38,741 nucleotides of DNA from an uncultured Candidatus Saccharibacteria bacterium (GTDB lineage: Bacteria > Patescibacteriota > Saccharimonadia > Saccharimonadales > Saccharimonadaceae). The stretch's first letter is position 1. Each line of letters starts with the position of its first letter. The position numbers and the translations under genes are program-made. The notes under the pieces were generated by a model. That model did no database searches and was not told the origin of the DNA. It saw only the letters and a list, made by a program, of their open reading frames with translations. This document shows positions 6,996 to 14,024 of this stretch, piece by piece. Where the stretch lies: the NCBI GenBank assembly GCA_947304395.1, contig CAMZBA010000002.1, forward strand, positions 112,593 through 151,333. The letters are read 5' to 3'.

Positions 6996-7351
6996 TGCCG
7001 CACTTTATAGATATCTTCGAGCCACACTACAAAAAATTGCTGGCCAGTTGCGAGCGCCAAAAGATTTCCGTCAACCTCGACATTCAAGATCTCACCGTCA
7101 ATATCCGCGACGCGTCACCGGTCGATAACTTCCTTGAATCCGAGATTAGGCGCGCCTTGCGCAACTGCAAAGCTGGCGACAAAATCACGCTAGCCGAAGC
7201 TTCCGACTCGCAAAACATCAAAATCTCCATCAAAAACTCCGGACGCGCCACACTAACGGATTCTGAAAAAGCCGCCCTCCGCGAGCAAGGCTATGAAGTA
7301 CGCGCCCGCTTCGGCTACGATACTGTCGTATCTATTAACATCAGCCGTTAA
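6995..7351 (+). CDS. Small protein resembling a reduced HATPase domain
   Basis: This 118-aa protein has no firm family assignment. The pattern FLESEIRRALRNCKAGDKITL followed by NIKISIKNSG looks like the N-box and first G-box of histidine-kinase ATPase domains, and the last strand, FGYDTVVSINIS, looks like the family's closing strand. The usual Asp of DxGxG is Asn (KNSG) and the ATP lid/G2 box is missing, so ATP binding is doubtful. Its start overlaps the ADP-ribosylglycohydrolase stop by one base, which indicates coupled translation. It could be a degenerate sensor or anti-sigma-like module working with the hydrolase; that is inference from layout only. Confidence 0.5.
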   Translation: MPHFIDIFEPHYKKLLASCERQKISVNLDIQDLTVNIRDASPVDNFLESEIRRALRNCKAGDKITLAEASDSQNIKISIKNSGRATLTDSEKAALREQGYEVRARFGYDTVVSINISR

Positions 7352-7745
7352 TATTGTGAAATACCGGCGCACCATCTATAGCGTTATGTGTTGCCGCCCA
7401 GCTTTCGCCTGTAATTTTTTCCAAACACCCCACGTCATCGATGTAAAAATCTCGCTTTAGTCTTGCGAATATTAAATATTTGTTATAAAACACATCAATT
7501 ATTCTTTCCGCTTTTGGCGTATCTACCGAGAGAGCAATCGCAAACAAAAGCAAAAGACTATAGTGCCTTACGTATATTTTCTTTCCACTGCGCGGATTAT
7601 ACATATTCGAACGCCCATAAGCTCATCTACCAATTTGCGTACGGGCATATTTCTTTACATAATATTGCAACTTCTGCCTCGAAATGCCCAACGCATCGCA
7701 AATACCCCTCCCACTAATATAAATCTCATATAATTGATGCTTCAT
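7341..7745 (-). pseudogene. HTH module copy A, split by an in-frame TGA
   Basis: Minus-strand frame from ATG 7745. The first 40 codons encode a small helix-turn-helix-like peptide (IYISGRGICDALGISRQ, then YYVKKY) that ends at TGA 7623-7625. The same frame continues without another stop through ATG 7604 to 7341, encoding GKKIYVRHYSLLLLF and FYNKYLIFARL. A diverged copy of both halves, also in one frame and also interrupted by TGA, lies at 13689-14024. The halves may be two cistrons, a readthrough gene, or a nonsense-decayed gene. The 3' end overlaps the end of the preceding plus-strand gene by a few bases. No promoter was recognised. Confidence 0.55.
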
Positions 7746-7790
7746 GGTTTAATATTATTCTTCCTTATGCATATCGCCCAAGCATGAGTA

Positions 7791-7990
7791 TTATCTTATT
7801 GGCATACTCATACATAAACGTTTCTCATATAACCATGTCGTTATGTCCAAAGAATTCAGACGCCACATAAGAAGCAATAACAGATAATAAACAAAATCCT
7901 CACAGCGTCCACCCCTGGTAACTCGCCATTTTTTAATGTCCGATTTTTTCGGACATAGCCGCAGAAGTTCAAAAAACAGCACACAAAACA
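7791..7990 (-). pseudogene. Possible third, decayed remnant of the HTH module C-terminal half
   Basis: Between GH97 and module copy A, the minus strand reads DFVYYLLLLLMWR in one frame and, after a +1 shift and a stop, ETFMYEYANKIILML. In order and spacing these resemble the HYSVLFFLM...TFLKLFYEHF section of module copy B. The similarity is weak and by eye. A perfect 7-base inverted repeat, TGTCCGA/TCGGACA with a 5-base T loop (7937-7955), lies inside it and has no T-run after it on either strand. Nothing else is recognisable in 7746-7998. Confidence 0.3.
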
Positions 7991-7998
7991 ACGCAATC

Positions 7999-9966
7999 TT
8001 ATTGCTTCTGTAATTTAATCGCAAAACCGCCGCCTGGCGCAATATACATCTCTAGACGATCGCCATTACGTACAATCTTTTCTTCTATCACATATCCAAG
8101 CTGATGATCGCGATAATGCGCATCGTCAGAATCTCGATAAACAGTTGCAATATAATTAATCCCTGGCTCAAGAAAATCAACATATAACTCTACGCGACGG
8201 CCTTCTTCATTCGTAACGCCACCTATATACCAATCATCGGACTCCCAAGCCTGACGCGCCACAACATAATAATGGCCAATCTCGCCCAATAGCGGCAAGG
8301 TACGCTCCCAACGAAGCGGCACATCACGAATAAACTCAAACAAATCAGGATACTTCATCTCATATATCTGCGGACGATCTGACGCCATCTGCATCGAAGA
8401 ATATATCGTAACATAATAAGCCAACTGACGAGTAATCGTAGAAGCAATACGTTTTGAGAAGTTTCCTACATCCAAAATCCCCGGCGTATAGTCCATGCCG
8501 CCAGCCAATAAACGAGTGAACGGCAAGAAGCAAGCGTGCGAAGGCGATAATGCGCCACCCTCATACTCCTGCCCACGCGCACCTTCACGAGTCATTAAAT
8601 TCGGCCAAGTGCGCTCAATACCAGTGGATTTAATCGGTTCATGCACATCAAGCATGATGTGGTATTTAGCCGCCAGCTCCAAAGCGCGCTGATAGTGCAA
8701 CACGCCAAGCTGCGAATGGTGAAATTCGCGACGACCATTAATCGTCATCTTCGAGCCAGCATAACCCGACTTAATATAACGAATGCCATATTGTTTTAAG
8801 AACTTATAGGAATCCTCAAGTTGCGCCTCGTAGTTGTCAATAAAACCAACCGTTTCATGGTGGCCAACTATTTCTACGCCATTGGCGTGGCCGTAATCCG
8901 ACACTACCTTCAAATCAAAATCTGGCGTAGCTTCCATGAATTTATTGTTCACGCCATTTTCGAGCCAGTCACCCTCCCAGCCATCATTCCAACCCTCGAT
9001 TAGTAGGGCAGAGATACCAAGATCTTTACATGAGTCGATATATTGCATGGCATGCTCGGTAGTCGCGCCATGACGATCGCCTGGCGCCCATGTCCACTCG
9101 CCAACATACATCGCCCACCAGATGCCCAAGAACTTCGTTGGCTCCACCCATGAAAAATCATCCCGCGGTGGGTCGTTCAAGTTCAACATCATGCGAGACG
9201 TAATCAAATCCAAAGCATTATTTCCCACAATCACCATGCGCCACGGAGTAGAAAACGGCAACTCGACATAAGCCCTCATACCATCCGAAAGCGGCGTGAT
9301 ATCCGTCTTCAACGATGCCCCATTCAGCTTTATCGTCATACCTCCGTAGTTATAGAGCGCCGCCTCGTGAATTGCCAAAAAGTGTCCCGAGGTAGATTGA
9401 ATCGTCAAAGGCGTATGCACGGAATCGGTCAACGTATAAACCGGATGCTCTACGTAATCATACTCATAGCGATCTGGCTGATACGCAGGAATGCTCCACG
9501 AGCGCGAATTTGTATCAACAGAAAATTCCGTCAACTCATCGGCTACGGCCATATTTTTCATCTCTGGCTGAGCTGGTATTTCATAGCGAAAAGCAAACCC
9601 ATCATCATAAACACGGAAACGCAAGGTCAAAAGTCGATTTGGCTTTTCGTACTCCTCAAGATAAATCGCCGTTTCGTTATAGTTATTACGGATCACATGC
9701 TGCTCGCCCCATTCCGCCTTCCAAACATCGTCAACCGTGCGCGTATAAGCCCGAATTACGGCAAAATTATCCGTCATCGGAGTCATGTCTTTCAGAATTA
9801 GGCCTAAGCGCGACTTGCGCAGGATAACTTTGTCATTCTTTTTTGCAAAGTAAGAAATTTGCCCATGATCAAGCACAAATACACAATCCAATTGACCATT
9901 TGGAGATTTAATTTCATATATAGCATCAGATTTAGGCTTTTTGAAAAAATCACCAAACAGACTCAT
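7999..9966 (-). CDS. Glycoside hydrolase family 97 (SusB-like alpha-glucosidase)
   Basis: This 655-aa protein has the GH97 layout: N-terminal beta-sandwich (IKSPNGQLDCVFVLDHGQIS, KSRLGL), catalytic barrel, and C-terminal beta domain. The barrel contains LLIEGWNDGWEGDW near residues 322-334, DVHEPIKSTGIERTWPNL near 440 and REGARGQEYEGG near 460. LPFTRLLAGGMDYTPG follows. The HEPIKSTG and REGARGQEYE segments resemble the inverting Bacteroides SusB type, where Glu residues act as base, rather than the retaining Asp-nucleophile type. ATG 9966 is preferred to the upstream TTG. No signal peptide is visible, so unlike periplasmic SusB it is probably cytoplasmic and would act on imported alpha-glucosides. 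GH97 is best known from Bacteroidetes, so horizontal acquisition is possible. Confidence 0.9.
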   Translation of the reverse strand: MSLFGDFFKKPKSDAIYEIKSPNGQLDCVFVLDHGQISYFAKKNDKVILRKSRLGLILKDMTPMTDNFAVIRAYTRTVDDVWKAEWGEQHVIRNNYNETAIYLEEYEKPNRLLTLRFRVYDDGFAFRYEIPAQPEMKNMAVADELTEFSVDTNSRSWSIPAYQPDRYEYDYVEHPVYTLTDSVHTPLTIQSTSGHFLAIHEAALYNYGGMTIKLNGASLKTDITPLSDGMRAYVELPFSTPWRMVIVGNNALDLITSRMMLNLNDPPRDDFSWVEPTKFLGIWWAMYVGEWTWAPGDRHGATTEHAMQYIDSCKDLGISALLIEGWNDGWEGDWLENGVNNKFMEATPDFDLKVVSDYGHANGVEIVGHHETVGFIDNYEAQLEDSYKFLKQYGIRYIKSGYAGSKMTINGRREFHHSQLGVLHYQRALELAAKYHIMLDVHEPIKSTGIERTWPNLMTREGARGQEYEGGALSPSHACFLPFTRLLAGGMDYTPGILDVGNFSKRIASTITRQLAYYVTIYSSMQMASDRPQIYEMKYPDLFEFIRDVPLRWERTLPLLGEIGHYYVVARQAWESDDWYIGGVTNEEGRRVELYVDFLEPGINYIATVYRDSDDAHYRDHQLGYVIEEKIVRNGDRLEMYIAPGGGFAIKLQKQ

Positions 9967-9998
9967 AAAGTATCCCACGTTAACATAAGTACATTGTA
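9963..9998 (-). promoter_or_regulatory. Promoter with leaderless 7-codon ORF coupled to GH97
   Basis: On the minus strand TACAAT (9993-9998) lies 6 bases before an ATG at 9986. That ATG opens a seven-residue ORF (MLTWDTL) ending in TGA at 9963-9965, which overlaps the GH97 start as ATGA. The box-to-ATG distance is the same as for other leaderless genes here, so the micro-ORF may be translated and may feed ribosomes onto GH97. Confidence 0.4.
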
Positions 9999-10020
9999 AC
10001 ACAGAAACAAAATGCTCATG

Positions 10021-10026
10021 TATAAT
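10021..10026 (+). promoter_or_regulatory. -10 box (TATAAT) of the EamA gene
   Basis: A perfect TATAAT lies 8 bases before ATG 10035, indicating a leaderless transcript. It is back to back with the minus-strand GH97 promoter, and the two -10 boxes are only 22 bases apart. Confidence 0.6.
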
Positions 10027-10034
10027 TAATCCAT

Positions 10035-10946
10035 ATGTTGTGGCTATTTTTATGCATTGCCGTTGCCCTAATTTGGTCCTTCAGCGCATTTATCGACAAC
10101 TACATTACCGACGTCATCTTTAAGGGTAAAAAGCCGCAATCCATGAAGATCTTTAACGGCATTAGTTACCTATTTTTTGCTCTTATAATACCGTTGGCGT
10201 TCGGCGTTAAGAGTATAGCCATTGAGCACATTATTCTTCTACTCTTGTCCGGCATTGCCAGCTCCGTTGCCTCAATTCCATACTACTTAGCCCTAAGAGA
10301 AGAAGAGTCGACAACCGCCGCAGTCTTTTATCAATTAATTCCCGTTATTTATCTTTTTTCGGATTGGCTAATTTTCGGCGAAGCAATCACGTCATTGCAA
10401 CTCATTGCCTTCATCATTATTCTAACGGCCCCAGCAATTATCATCTTTACTCGAAAACGACCACGTAGCCGTCGCATCGAATTTAATGCCGCGCTTCTTT
10501 TCACTCTCTACGCCTGCATATCTGCGCTTAGCGGCATTCTATCTACTCGTATCGGCGAAAAGTACGATTTTCCGAGCGTCTTCTTTTACTTCCTCGTAGG
10601 ACGAGGCTTATCAGACGTCATTTTATTCGCCACTCATTCCGATTGGCAACAACGCATGAAATTCATCTGGCGGCGCAAAAAATGGCAATTCCTCTTCGCA
10701 GAAGGTACCAACCAAATCATTTGTATTATCGCCGAATTTCTAAGCCGTTATGCCTTAATAATCGGCGTTGCATCCTTAATATCCGTCACCTACAATGTTC
10801 TCGAGCTAATATTTACTTTTGCACTCGGAATCATACTTTCCATCATTTGGCCTAAATTTGGTCGCGAAAAGCTTAATCGACACGTTGTCATCGCGCATTT
10901 TATCGCAACTATTCTCGCTACGATTGGTATAATACTAATAAGATAA
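10035..10946 (+). CDS. EamA/DMT-type membrane transporter
   Basis: The 303-aa protein has about ten hydrophobic segments in two repeats separated by a basic stretch (TRKRPRSRRIEFN, near residues 137-150). Helix 1, the SVASIPYYLALREEESTTAAVFYQLIPV segment and the position of the second repeat fit EamA/drug-metabolite transporters. The substrate cannot be deduced. The start is fixed by a leaderless promoter. The next gene starts 10 bases after the stop with a strong AAAGGAGG ribosome-binding site, so the two form an operon. Confidence 0.75.
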   Translation: MLWLFLCIAVALIWSFSAFIDNYITDVIFKGKKPQSMKIFNGISYLFFALIIPLAFGVKSIAIEHIILLLLSGIASSVASIPYYLALREEESTTAAVFYQLIPVIYLFSDWLIFGEAITSLQLIAFIIILTAPAIIIFTRKRPRSRRIEFNAALLFTLYACISALSGILSTRIGEKYDFPSVFFYFLVGRGLSDVILFATHSDWQQRMKFIWRRKKWQFLFAEGTNQIICIIAEFLSRYALIIGVASLISVTYNVLELIFTFALGIILSIIWPKFGREKLNRHVVIAHFIATILATIGIILIR

Positions 10947-10955
10947 AGGAGGCAC

Positions 10956-11483
10956 ATGGAAATACCAACAGGAATAATCGGATTAGTCATAGGACTATTT
11001 TTACTATTTTTCGGCTATCGCCTGAAGAAAATCGCAATCACAGTCATCTGGTTCTTGATCGGCTTCTGGCTCGTCTCCTTATTTGTCGACAAAATCGTTG
11101 CCGATGAAATGTGGCAATTAATCCTCTGCGGAGTCGGTGGCCTTGTACTGGGCATGTTTGGTATGACTATAGAAAAAATTGCCGTTTTTGCATCAGTAGG
11201 CTTTGCCTTCTTTATGTCTGCTATGAATGCTTTCGGCCCAGCTACCGACTGGACTCTACCGGCCATCTGCGTAGCTATCGGCGTCGTTGCTGGAGTAATT
11301 GCCGTTTGGTTCATTAAACCAATGGTTATCATTGCTACTTCCGTCCAAGGAGCGCAACTCGTCCTCACAAACGCATTATTGCTTCTAAACATTGCTCAAC
11401 CGCAATGGTATCTCATTGCATACGTAGCCATTATTTTAATTGGCGGCATTTTTCAGTGGAATAACTGTAAAAATATCGAATAA
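10956..11483 (+). CDS. TMEM198/DUF4203-like multi-pass membrane protein
   Basis: The 175-aa protein is almost entirely hydrophobic, with about six or seven transmembrane helices and a Gly-rich pattern (LIGFWLVSLF, GVGGLVLGMFGM, IGVVAGVIAVWF) like DUF4203/TMEM198 proteins. The function is unknown. It has an excellent Shine-Dalgarno sequence, in contrast to the leaderless first gene of the operon. The C-terminus is short and cytoplasmic (QWNNCKNIE). Confidence 0.55.
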   Translation: MEIPTGIIGLVIGLFLLFFGYRLKKIAITVIWFLIGFWLVSLFVDKIVADEMWQLILCGVGGLVLGMFGMTIEKIAVFASVGFAFFMSAMNAFGPATDWTLPAICVAIGVVAGVIAVWFIKPMVIIATSVQGAQLVLTNALLLLNIAQPQWYLIAYVAIILIGGIFQWNNCKNIE

Positions 11484-11487
11484 TCGG

Positions 11488-11493
11488 TATAAT
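11488..11493 (+). promoter_or_regulatory. -10 box (TATAAT) of the candidate small RNA
   Basis: A perfect TATAAT lies 5 bases after the stop of the preceding gene and is followed by no plus-strand ORF. It would start a transcript near 11500. The -35 region is not recognisable. Confidence 0.5.
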
Positions 11494-11499
11494 ATAGCA

Positions 11500-11636
11500 C
11501 TCGACTTGGGCGAAGAAAAATCAAGCGTCCACAATCTCTACGACCGATATCGTAGCTACTATCTCAACCAGAGACTGGATTAAGCCAAAAGCCCAAACAT
11601 CACGTCGGCCACAAACGGCCGACGTTTTTATTTTTT
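11500..11636 (+). ncRNA. Candidate intergenic small RNA
   Basis: A stretch of about 130 bases between convergent genes has its own -10 box and ends in a strong terminator. It can fold with a closing stem TTGGGC/GCCCAA (11506-11511 with 11591-11596) and an internal hairpin TACGA/TCGTA (11539-11554). TGGGCG can alternatively pair with CGTCCA (11525-11530), so two exclusive folds are possible. No SRP, 6S, tmRNA or RNase P core motif is present, so its class is unknown. Confidence 0.45.
11602..11636 (+). terminator. Intrinsic terminator of the small RNA/transporter operon
   Basis: A perfect 9-base stem ACGTCGGCC/GGCCGACGT (11602-11610 and 11617-11625) with a 6-base loop is followed by a T-rich tail on the plus strand. 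The minus strand has no T-run after the hairpin, so it works mainly for plus-strand transcripts. Confidence 0.85.
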
Positions 11637-12677
11637 CAATGCTATTTCACGAAATAGCCCAAGCACTAAATCCTTACTTTCTTTATCTAAATCATTTGCC
11701 GAACGAATCATCTTCACAATATTGTGGAACTTCATCATTGACATCGTGTCCAAAACGTCGCACCCCTCTATCACGCCAAATACCGCATCGGTCAGCTTTT
11801 TCCGATCAGCATCATCGTGCTTATCTAGCCATGACCACAAACGACGCTCAATCTCCAAGCTATGTTCAGACCTCTTCGCGCGTTTAAAATGATCGTCAAC
11901 TACTTGCCACGTCGCCGAAGAATGCCCAAGGATGTTTTCTTTATCAGATTGAACAACGCGGTAATTACTATTGCGCATCATCGCACCCACAATGCTACAA
12001 TGCGGGATAATATGCACGTATTTCTTTCTCACCCTCTCATACTCTTTTGATTCAAATTCTTTTCGACGCAAGCCAGGACCATCGTTATTATAGATTCTCA
12101 AGATACGTTGATATTTTAACCGATTCATATACATCGGAGCTACTAGCGCTAAATTACCCCCTTTAGAATGCCCGCCCACAATGACTTTCGGTCCAAAGAA
12201 ACTAACATGCTCATTTAGGTATTCTGTCGCTTTTATATGCGATGGAACAGGGAAGGACCACGCCATTTCAAAATCTTCACGCCAACCACTAATAAGCTGA
12301 TCGGTTCCTTCGAATGCAATATATTCCAAACCCCGCGTTACGCGAAAAGTAATCGCACTAAATTGCATATTGCGACTCGTGTCGTAAATGTAATCAGACA
12401 CTATTAAATTTCGATATCGCTCCTTCTCGACAATCGCATTCATCAACTGATAAGCAACGCCAATTGCAATTCCTAACCGACGCGCGTCTTTATATGAAGT
12501 CCGACGCAGATATTCTCGGCCAATCTCCTCAAGCGTATGGCAATTTTCGTTAATTCTAGTATGCGTAAAATCCAAGTACGCCAACTGTGAAAAAACCAAG
12601 TTATCAACCTCAGTAAAAGCCTTTTCCTCGAAGCGCAAATTACCGTATTTTTCTACATAGTCAAAAATATTCGCCAT
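11628..12677 (-). CDS. DUF2974/Mbeg1-like alpha/beta hydrolase
   Basis: The 349-aa protein resembles the Mbeg1-like lipase-related family. VIVGGHSKGGNLALVAPMY near residue 170 is the nucleophile elbow GxSxG with Ser, and the strand before it (LEYIAFEGTD, about residue 116) contains the typical oxyanion-side FRGTD-like motif. Members are intracellular or surface hydrolases of unknown substrate. ATG 12677 has TAAAAT 8 bases upstream on the minus strand (12686-12691), indicating a leaderless start although rlmH and an unknown gene lie upstream in the same direction. Confidence 0.75.
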   Translation of the reverse strand: MANIFDYVEKYGNLRFEEKAFTEVDNLVFSQLAYLDFTHTRINENCHTLEEIGREYLRRTSYKDARRLGIAIGVAYQLMNAIVEKERYRNLIVSDYIYDTSRNMQFSAITFRVTRGLEYIAFEGTDQLISGWREDFEMAWSFPVPSHIKATEYLNEHVSFFGPKVIVGGHSKGGNLALVAPMYMNRLKYQRILRIYNNDGPGLRRKEFESKEYERVRKKYVHIIPHCSIVGAMMRNSNYRVVQSDKENILGHSSATWQVVDDHFKRAKRSEHSLEIERRLWSWLDKHDDADRKKLTDAVFGVIEGCDVLDTMSMMKFHNIVKMIRSANDLDKESKDLVLGLFREIALKK

Positions 12678-12702
12678 ATTAATATATTTTACAATAATTA
12701 TC

Positions 12703-13122
12703 TCAACTTGTCGCTATTAGCGCCCTCTCATAGATTGCCGACAATACGCCAATTTCTGCCACACTTAGGTAATGTTTTGTTCCGCTTCGCTCGTTGTCGT
12801 CCAGAAAGTCCCAAAAACGCCCAATCTTTTCTCTCGCGTCCACAAAACCACTAAATAGCGCCTCGGCGCACTGCGATTGCCGTCGTGAAAGTGGCCGTAA
12901 TAATTCTAACTTCATTTCATCGTCGAAATCTTTGAATAATTTCTTATAGTTATCGTACGCCTTGAAGCCAATCAAGAAATTTACATCAAAAACAACCCGA
13001 AAATTATCAATCAAAAATTTATTAATGTCAGCAAGCGGAGCCTCCCCCTCCAACAATCGCCACAACGCGTCTTTCTTGCGGTTAATATCCTTATACGAAA
13101 TCAAAACATCATCTTTATTCAT
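12703..13122 (-). CDS. Uncharacterised helical protein next to rlmH
   Basis: This 139-aa soluble protein is not recognised. It is mostly charged helix (KKLFKDFDDEMKLELLRPLSRRQ, FSGFVDAREKIGRFWDFLDD) without cysteines in a metal pattern, signal peptide or membrane segment. Its ATG lies inside the end of rlmH (8-base overlap), so it is probably translated from the rlmH transcript by coupling. A role linked to ribosome maturation cannot be excluded but nothing in the sequence shows it. Confidence 0.6.
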   Translation of the reverse strand: MNKDDVLISYKDINRKKDALWRLLEGEAPLADINKFLIDNFRVVFDVNFLIGFKAYDNYKKLFKDFDDEMKLELLRPLSRRQSQCAEALFSGFVDAREKIGRFWDFLDDNERSGTKHYLSVAEIGVLSAIYERALIATS

Positions 13123-13543
13123 GGTGATACGCGTGCCCTAGATATATTTCTTGCGCCCGATAAATTTGCTCCGTCACGATTAGCCGACAAATCTGGTGCG
13201 GAAAGACTAATTTCGATAGGCTCCAAATCAAGTTTGCCCGAGCCTTCACTTCTGGCGCAAAATGCCCAAATGCGCCACCAATCACAATTATCACATCGCG
13301 TCCATTCTCTAACTGAACCGTCAACGATTGGCTCAATCTCGGCGAACTCATCATCTCGCCATTCTCGTCTAGTAATACAACAAAGTCGTCTTTATTAAAG
13401 CGCGCTACGCGCTCCGTCAGCTTTTCTTCGTCTATAAATTGCCACTCAATTGTCCATGGTTTCCGAAGACGCTTCTCATATTCATCGCAAGCTTCTTTTA
13501 ACCAGCTCGCATGCTTCTTACCGCCCGCAATAATCTTAATCAT
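13115..13543 (-). CDS. rlmH: 23S rRNA (pseudouridine1915-N3)-methyltransferase RlmH
   Basis: The 142-aa product begins MIKIIAGGKKHASWLKEACDEYEKRL and has the SPOUT-family SAM site IIVIGGAFG and the C-terminal WSLSKLVFPHQICRLIVTEQIYRA plus LGHAYHHE, which match RlmH along its whole length. RlmH methylates pseudouridine 1915 in helix 69 of 23S rRNA on assembled ribosomes. The frame is open upstream to 13651, but ATG 13543 matches the family N-terminus and has a leaderless promoter. It overlaps the next gene by 8 bases. Confidence 0.93.
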   Translation of the reverse strand: MIKIIAGGKKHASWLKEACDEYEKRLRKPWTIEWQFIDEEKLTERVARFNKDDFVVLLDENGEMMSSPRLSQSLTVQLENGRDVIIVIGGAFGHFAPEVKARANLIWSLSKLVFPHQICRLIVTEQIYRAQEIYLGHAYHHE

Positions 13544-13550
13544 TGAACCA

Positions 13551-13580
13551 ATTTTACTTGTTTTTTCATTAATTCTGCAA
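13551..13580 (-). promoter_or_regulatory. Promoter of rlmH
   Basis: On the minus strand TTGCAG (13575-13580), an 18-base spacer and TAAAAT (13551-13556) lie 7 bases before the rlmH ATG. This gives a leaderless mRNA. Confidence 0.55.
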
Positions 13581-13600
13581 CCCCACCTGCAATAGTCCGT

Positions 13601-13669
13601 CATGCCGTACTCGCACTTTTTTCTCGCAACCACACCACGCCGTACTCGCACTTTTTCTCACAACCATGC
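13601..13669 (+). repeat. Two tandem 34-35 base direct repeats upstream of rlmH
   Basis: Unit 1 (13601-13635) and unit 2 (13636-13669) share GCCGTACTCGCACTTTTT and CTC-CAACCA, with only a few differences and one T fewer in unit 2. A partial third unit (CATGCCG) begins at 13665. They lie between rlmH and HTH module copy B. Function unknown; they could be binding sites or a small tandem duplication. Confidence 0.7.
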
Positions 13670-13672
13670 CGC

Positions 13673-13695
13673 GTTGTATAAAATATTTTTACAAC
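13673..13695. repeat. AT-rich inverted repeat at the end of HTH module B
   Basis: GTTGTA and TACAAC flank an A/T core that is itself nearly palindromic. It overlaps the TAA of module copy B (13689-13691) and could be a weak terminator or an element boundary. Confidence 0.4.
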
Positions 13696-14024
13696 ATAAA
13701 CAGTAGTTCCGCCTCGTCAATCAGGATATTTTTGTCATACTTTCTTGTACGCATAAAATGCTCGTAAAATAGCTTTAGAAAAGTCTGCGCACGCGGGGAA
13801 TTAGTGCGAAAAGCGATCATCAAAAAGAAAAGCACCGAATAATGATATGCGTACTTTTTTCGCCATCTTTTGCCAATACGTACGTTAGTATATCCTCAAA
13901 CTCGTCGCATCAATGGGGCCCCTAAATACTTCTGACAATAATAATTAAATTGCTGGCGCGAAATGCCCAATGCATCACAAATCGCGCGACCACTAATATA
14001 AATCTCACCATTATGATTAAACAT
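13689..14024 (-). pseudogene. HTH module copy B, split by an in-frame TGA
   Basis: From ATG 14024 the minus strand encodes a 42-residue peptide with IYISGRAICDALGISRQ and YYCQKY, ending at TGA 13896-13898. The same frame then stays open to TAA 13689-13691 and encodes RKKYAYHYSVLFFLMIAF, TFLKLFYEHF and ILIDEAELLF. Both halves match module copy A (7341-7745) in order, frame and spacing, including the TGA. Here the second half has no ATG close to its beginning, so independent translation is less likely than in copy A. It may be a decayed gene, a readthrough gene or two coupled cistrons. Confidence 0.55.

Follow-up and report, generated by a model that had tools for sequence, protein, structure and literature searches.

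In-frame UGA codons, probably read as tryptophan, in two short RhuM-like genes and in the transformation genes of a Saccharibacteria genus

Bacterial genetic codes are usually taken to be all-or-nothing properties of a genome. Programmed stop-codon readthrough is known mainly from viruses and eukaryotes, and in Streptomyces the rare TTA codons, which depend on the regulated tRNA bldA, limit the translation of a developmental gene set. In phages, stop-codon recoding affects a chosen functional class, the late genes, and has been proposed to delay their expression (PMC10746230). Among patescibacteria, the family JAKLIH01 (class Minisyncoccia) has fully reassigned UGA to tryptophan, and tRNA-Trp with four-pair anticodon stems read UGA elsewhere; that study mentions neither competence nor Saccharibacteria (PMC13092985). 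A search of the openly licensed literature returned no report of UGA readthrough, in-frame stops, or a dual-meaning UGA in Saccharibacteria. The window analyzed here, a stretch of 38,741 nucleotides, contains two short genes (copies A and B) that are each crossed by an in-frame TGA (Table 1). With a probability of roughly three in four, A and B are functional single genes in which the UGA is decoded, tryptophan being the likeliest residue, and they would belong to a small gene set in which UGA encodes tryptophan alongside UGG, with RF2 terminating at UGA elsewhere. This set appears to be centred on natural transformation and would include all four transformation genes examined.

Table 1. Positions in the window of copies A and B and of their internal TGA codons.
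Feature	Position	Strand	Basis
Copy A, short RhuM-like winged-helix gene	7341..7745	−	Translation, TGA-bearing orthologues, dN/dS
Internal TGA, codon 41 of copy A (next base G)	7623..7625	−	Kept in four species
Copy B, short RhuM-like winged-helix gene	13689..14024	−	Translation, orthologues, AlphaFold2 model
Internal TGA, codon 43 of copy B (next base G)	13896..13898	−	Kept in four species

The initial annotation had described two minus-strand ORFs, each made of two halves in one frame that are separated by one TGA. The translations agree with this description and place the TGAs at codons 41 and 43; there is no second stop in either copy, and translation through the internal UGA would give products of 134 (A) and 111 (B) residues. 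The two copies are approximately 36% identical and are the sole family members found in the genome that holds the window (1.02 Mb, 96% complete). Their family profile matches the N-terminal part of proteins of approximately 330–370 amino acids in a neighbouring genus with E-values down to 1e-10, and the two long relatives examined are RhuM-Fic proteins (PF13310 Virulence_RhuM plus PF02661 Fic). Judging from this profile homology to confirmed RhuM proteins, A and B are short relatives of the N-terminal winged-helix part of RhuM-Fic proteins. In contrast to the latter, however, they end after the winged-helix part, show no Fic domain in their translations or in Pfam, score under the Pfam gathering cut-off for PF13310, and contain the in-frame UGA. 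Related short members free of TGA match PF13310 weakly. Matches of approximately 420–480 amino acids in the first genome search were UvrC-like proteins unrelated to A and B. Viral contigs contained no relative of copy B, and PHROGs gave weak antirepressor-like matches only. The AlphaFold2 model of copy B, with tryptophan placed at the UGA, is confident (mean pLDDT 82.7) and predicts one winged-helix domain; residue 43, encoded by the UGA, falls where the first wing strand begins. According to this model, termination at the UGA would cost the wing and the subsequent helices. A Foldseek search of the PDB returned no significant match, the top one being DdrC of Deinococcus (E 0.39, TM 0.49).

Both genes and their TGAs are kept at 89–98% identity in three other genomes of the same genus (G005, G031, and G036), which agrees with the earlier view that independent nonsense mutations are unlikely. 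Between these four sibling species A and B show no frameshift and no other stop; their non-coding flanks have acquired several indels. The initial annotation had expected selection to act on both halves of a functional split or readthrough gene, and dN/dS was indeed low on both sides of the TGA in both copies among the four species. For copy A, with a dS of approximately 0.3 over the whole gene, dN/dS was 0–0.18 upstream and 0.07–0.20 downstream of the TGA, and synonymous changes were sparser across the first 60 codons than in the remainder. In copy B, changes of every type are few (dS about 0.07–0.14). Thus, a conserved in-frame stop is combined with purifying selection on either side, as in programmed readthrough. 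No stable RNA fold and no significant z-score were found around the two TGAs. A palindrome array adjoins the RhuM-like genes of two other congeneric genomes (G015 and G025); nothing resembling it is present among the repeats that flank A and B.

A census of the family in 45 genomes of the genus yielded 24 members at E ≤ 1.5e-5. In-frame TGA occurs in 13 of these and TAA or TAG in none, and the TGA-bearing members make up five or six separate lineages. In A, B, the G025 gene, and one gene each of G015 and G022 the TGA lies in the loop before the wing, the second G015 gene has it inside the HTH, and the second G022 gene after the wing. The common feature is therefore the TGA itself and not a fixed position. 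The claim that A and B carry their TGA at nearly the same place is borne out insofar as the family alignment puts both in the same loop; since they are two columns apart in it, strict positional homology is not certain. In G015 and G025, a TGA-bearing RhuM-like gene adjoins prfB, which encodes RF2.

Similar interruptions were found outside this family. A scan of the genome for in-frame stops within conserved proteins identified dprA, comEC (two TGAs), comM, and a UvrD-type helicase (two TGAs), and also genes for a sortase, a pilin-like protein, and a cutinase-like protein, each with an in-frame TGA. Two earlier scans, one of codon usage and one of synonymous versus non-synonymous change, returned mostly operon junctions and antisense shadows and were replaced. 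An unbiased comparison with half of the G005 genome, which retained conserved stops flanked on either side by little non-synonymous change, provided that no other gene intervened, gave nine TGA sites within single proteins: one each in dprA, comM, A, B, and the pilin-like, sortase, and cutinase-like genes, and two in comEC. Those TAA and TAG windows retained by the same comparison were, as read by eye, gene junctions, tails past gene ends, and antisense shadows, and inspection revealed no TAA or TAG inside a protein. The remaining core transformation gene, comFC, was examined in this genome only and also has an in-frame TGA, located between two CxxC motifs; the part of ComFC tested matches the ComF family of NCBIfam under the cut-off. 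Hence, an in-frame TGA is present in each of the four examined genes for transformation (comEC, dprA, comFC, and comM), compared to approximately 1 gene in 100 overall. Across the genus, TGA interrupts dprA in 21 of the 41 genomes having a match, comEC in 22 of 45 genomes, and comM in 15 of 36 above-cut-off matches, counts that are not independent across species, and a single gene carries up to five UGAs. The genomes are draft MAGs, several independent ones of which agree on the TGA. Three public MAGs (UBA3225, RUI495, and Tb.RUG.403), whose names point to the rumen, have a near-identical dprA with the same TGA. TGA is the sole type of in-frame stop in A, B, dprA, and comM. A lone TAA or TAG occurs in comEC of seven genomes; in the two inspected (G037 and G039) it falls into the final alignment columns and probably represents the true gene end. 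Outside the genus, the dprA matches listed for the order contained no TGA and one TAA. Between siblings, dN/dS of dprA, comM, and comEC ranged from 0.04 to 0.31.

The alignments of the transformation proteins indicate which amino acid may be inserted. Column 42 of DprA is tryptophan in 15, TGA in 11, and tyrosine in 4 genomes. The respective numbers are 24 tryptophan, 4 TGA, and 2 phenylalanine in ComEC column 354, and 17 tryptophan and 2 TGA in ComEC column 322. ComM has a sole tryptophan column, 164, which is occupied by tryptophan (13), TGA (12), valine (3), or phenylalanine (2). Exchange of TGA and TGG is seen even between the four sibling species. As far as sequence comparison can tell, TGA and TGG are interchangeable at conserved tryptophan positions of dprA, comEC, and comM across the genus. 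The UGAs of A and B lie outside conserved tryptophan columns, at variable positions like some other TGAs, and in a fifth species, G004, different residues occupy these sites. Tryptophan is the residue most likely inserted in A and B. No tRNA-Sec was found, and selenocysteine does not fit relatives that have tryptophan at the TGA sites.

Elsewhere in this genome, UGA behaves as a stop. TGA terminates 117 ORFs of at least 150 amino acids; in 65 of these the stop codon shares bases with an ATG, for example in ATGA. Reading on in frame past a terminal TGA gives a stretch no longer than that past TAA or TAG. This bears out the earlier statement that TGA is a normal stop here. The dismissal of a genome-wide code change in the initial annotation stands as well, given that TGA is a working stop, RF2 is present, and no in-frame stop occurs in leucyl-tRNA synthetase (leuS) and its relatives among the matches listed from 45 genomes. 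prfB, which like leuS served as a negative control, was free of in-frame stops in ten genomes. The base following the TGA also differs between the two roles: C follows 38 of 79 sense TGAs in dprA, comEC, and comM but 21 of 137 terminal TGAs (p = 5e-7) and 711 of 2914 TGG codons (p = 8e-6 versus sense TGA), both p-values being too small because the sequences are related. In E. coli, UGA leaks most when C comes next, and the enrichment of C favours near-cognate decoding in competition with RF2. In A and B, however, G follows the UGA, so readthrough may be lower and their behaviour may not match that of the com genes.

Several other explanations deserve attention. The initial annotation had considered a conserved two-cistron unit with a 40-residue DNA-binding peptide. 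The TGA would then terminate a 40-residue HTH product, and re-initiation would yield the remaining half. An ATG six codons downstream of the TGA in copy A and the purifying selection on both halves would suit this arrangement. It fails for copy B, though, because neither ATG, GTG, nor TTG occurs within 20 codons past a TGA that sits at the start of the wing and splits what the model predicts to be a single domain. Moreover, the TGA is within the HTH in one relative and past the wing in another, and family relatives free of TGA are single ORFs, making two cistrons very improbable. A start codon overlapping the TGA itself (ATGA in A, TTGA in B) was rejected since the frame closes within approximately 10 codons. 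Likewise, expansion from an already-split ancestor is not needed, because the TGA sites vary in the family, G004 possesses an uninterrupted syntenic orthologue of copy B without TGA, and unrelated genes are affected. Of the first reading, readthrough and the doubts about a genome-wide code change and about independent nonsense mutations are supported, its two-cistron option is disfavoured, and its split-ancestor option is not required. Even less credible is simple decay, which would regard A, B, and the com genes as pseudogenes and could invoke the open forms in other species and a TAG in comEC of two genomes. It is difficult to reconcile with interruption of A, B, dprA, and comM by TGA alone, with A and B remaining free of frameshifts among four siblings, with the low dN/dS of the com genes, and with the location of TGAs at tryptophan columns.

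Readthrough of UGA, one of the options offered initially, is supported by the conserved TGA, the purifying selection on both sides, and the equivalence of TGA and TGG in the com genes. In the most plausible mechanism, the ordinary tRNA-Trp(CCA) would read UGA as a near-cognate codon against RF2, and full-length protein would result from only some rounds of translation, or whenever the competition between tRNA-Trp and RF2 shifts. A dedicated decoding factor, such as a suppressor tRNA or a modified tRNA-Trp that reads UGA in these genes, would be the simplest way of switching a functional gene set; the genome carries two tRNA-Trp(CCA) genes one base apart, and the assembly is incomplete. This alternative is unlikely, however. 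ARAGORN, with introns allowed or not, predicted no tRNA with a UCA anticodon, the anticodon stem of tRNA-Trp has its normal five pairs, unlike the UGA-reading four-pair stems (PMC13092985), and a tRNA-Trp query of 45 genomes retrieved, apart from places of low identity, only the usual gene, whose sequence most genomes share. The second tRNA-Trp gene was rejected as a suppressor candidate, its sequence being ordinary. If UGA is read as tryptophan well enough in this genus, the UGAs could have no regulatory role at all, the change from TGG to TGA being nearly neutral in genes needed at a very low level. Such tolerated leakiness, to which we would give somewhat less than an even chance, would account for the repeated exchange of TGA and TGG, the TGAs at variable columns, and the affected sortase, pilin-like, and cutinase-like genes. 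It does not readily explain why sense TGAs in dprA and comEC are located earlier in the gene than TGGs and two late tryptophan columns are never TGA, why every examined transformation gene is hit, or why C is preferred after the TGA. The early bias, the involvement of all four transformation genes, and the RhuM-like gene beside prfB in G015 and G025 suggest a regulatory gate: the UGAs in comEC, dprA, comFC, comM, and the winged-helix regulators may form a translational switch, with a change in RF2 or tRNA-Trp turning on DNA uptake. We propose this switch tentatively and would give it clearly less than even odds. A gate of this kind would place the control of competence in these organisms at translation termination. 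Standard gene callers would split dprA, comEC, comFC, and comM, so that these bacteria could be misreported as non-competent.

In this genus, one codon appears to signal termination in the majority of genes but tryptophan in a small, defined group, in a state that is stable genus-wide with the release factor retained. With UGA-to-Trp reassignment (NCBI code 4; JAKLIH01, PMC13092985) this state shares UGA at tryptophan positions. UGA is not tryptophan throughout the genome, however, and neither a UCA anticodon nor a four-pair stem was found; RF2 is kept, UGA is a stop in most genes, housekeeping genes are free of it, and tRNA-Trp is ordinary. Genes with a single in-frame UGA, the leaky next base in the com genes, and the conserved downstream part resemble programmed readthrough, which differs in that a functional set of cellular bacterial genes is affected here, across a whole genus and with up to five UGAs per gene. 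The recoding of phage late genes (PMC10746230) likewise places stop codons within one functional gene class, but phages supply suppressor tRNAs, whereas the search here found no such tRNA, and it is cellular genes that carry the stops. In Streptomyces, too, a rare codon limits a gene set through bldA; there it is a sense codon, whereas here it is a stop codon contested by RF2.

Synonymous change in copy A, the short RhuM-like winged-helix gene at positions 7341-7745 of the window (minus strand), is unevenly spread when sibling species are compared: the initial 60 codons, where the in-frame TGA lies, show far less of it than the remaining codons. The terminal stop of copy A is also TGA (7341-7343), and TAA TAG stand two codons further on. 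This pair may be a back-up stop, should the terminal UGA leak too. In the genome that holds the window (G000), both TGAs of a UvrD/Rep-type helicase gene fall within conserved domains of the protein.

Features outside the window, in G000 and in two other genomes of the genus (G015, G025)
Feature	Location	Context
UvrD/Rep-type helicase gene, two in-frame TGAs	G000:C4:34504-36858	
tRNA-Trp(CCA) gene	G000:C16:1951-2026	
tRNA-Trp(CCA) gene	G000:C21:1811-1886	
RhuM-like gene with in-frame TGA	L148:9347-9733 (G015:C6)	between prfB (RF2) and FtsE-like ATPase gene
RhuM-like gene with in-frame TGA	L149:11492-11881 (G025:C9)	between prfB (RF2) and FtsE-like ATPase gene

The two tRNA-Trp(CCA) genes of G000 differ at a single T-loop base, and each other anticodon found in this genome, Met(CAT) excepted, occurs only once. 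The second gene may stem from contamination, or the genome may really have two copies.

The RhuM-like TGA genes next to prfB have palindromes with the pattern GTAAACT-N-AGTTTAC on either side, and several of these palindromes are spaced by exactly 45 bp.

Among the transformation genes, dprA appears as two partial matches in G004:C1 and G042:C7, and likewise in a dozen genomes of genus g2, and comM does so in G009:C8. In G004, G042, and G009 the two partial matches have an overlap of a few bases and are in different frames, as if a frameshift had occurred within the gene.
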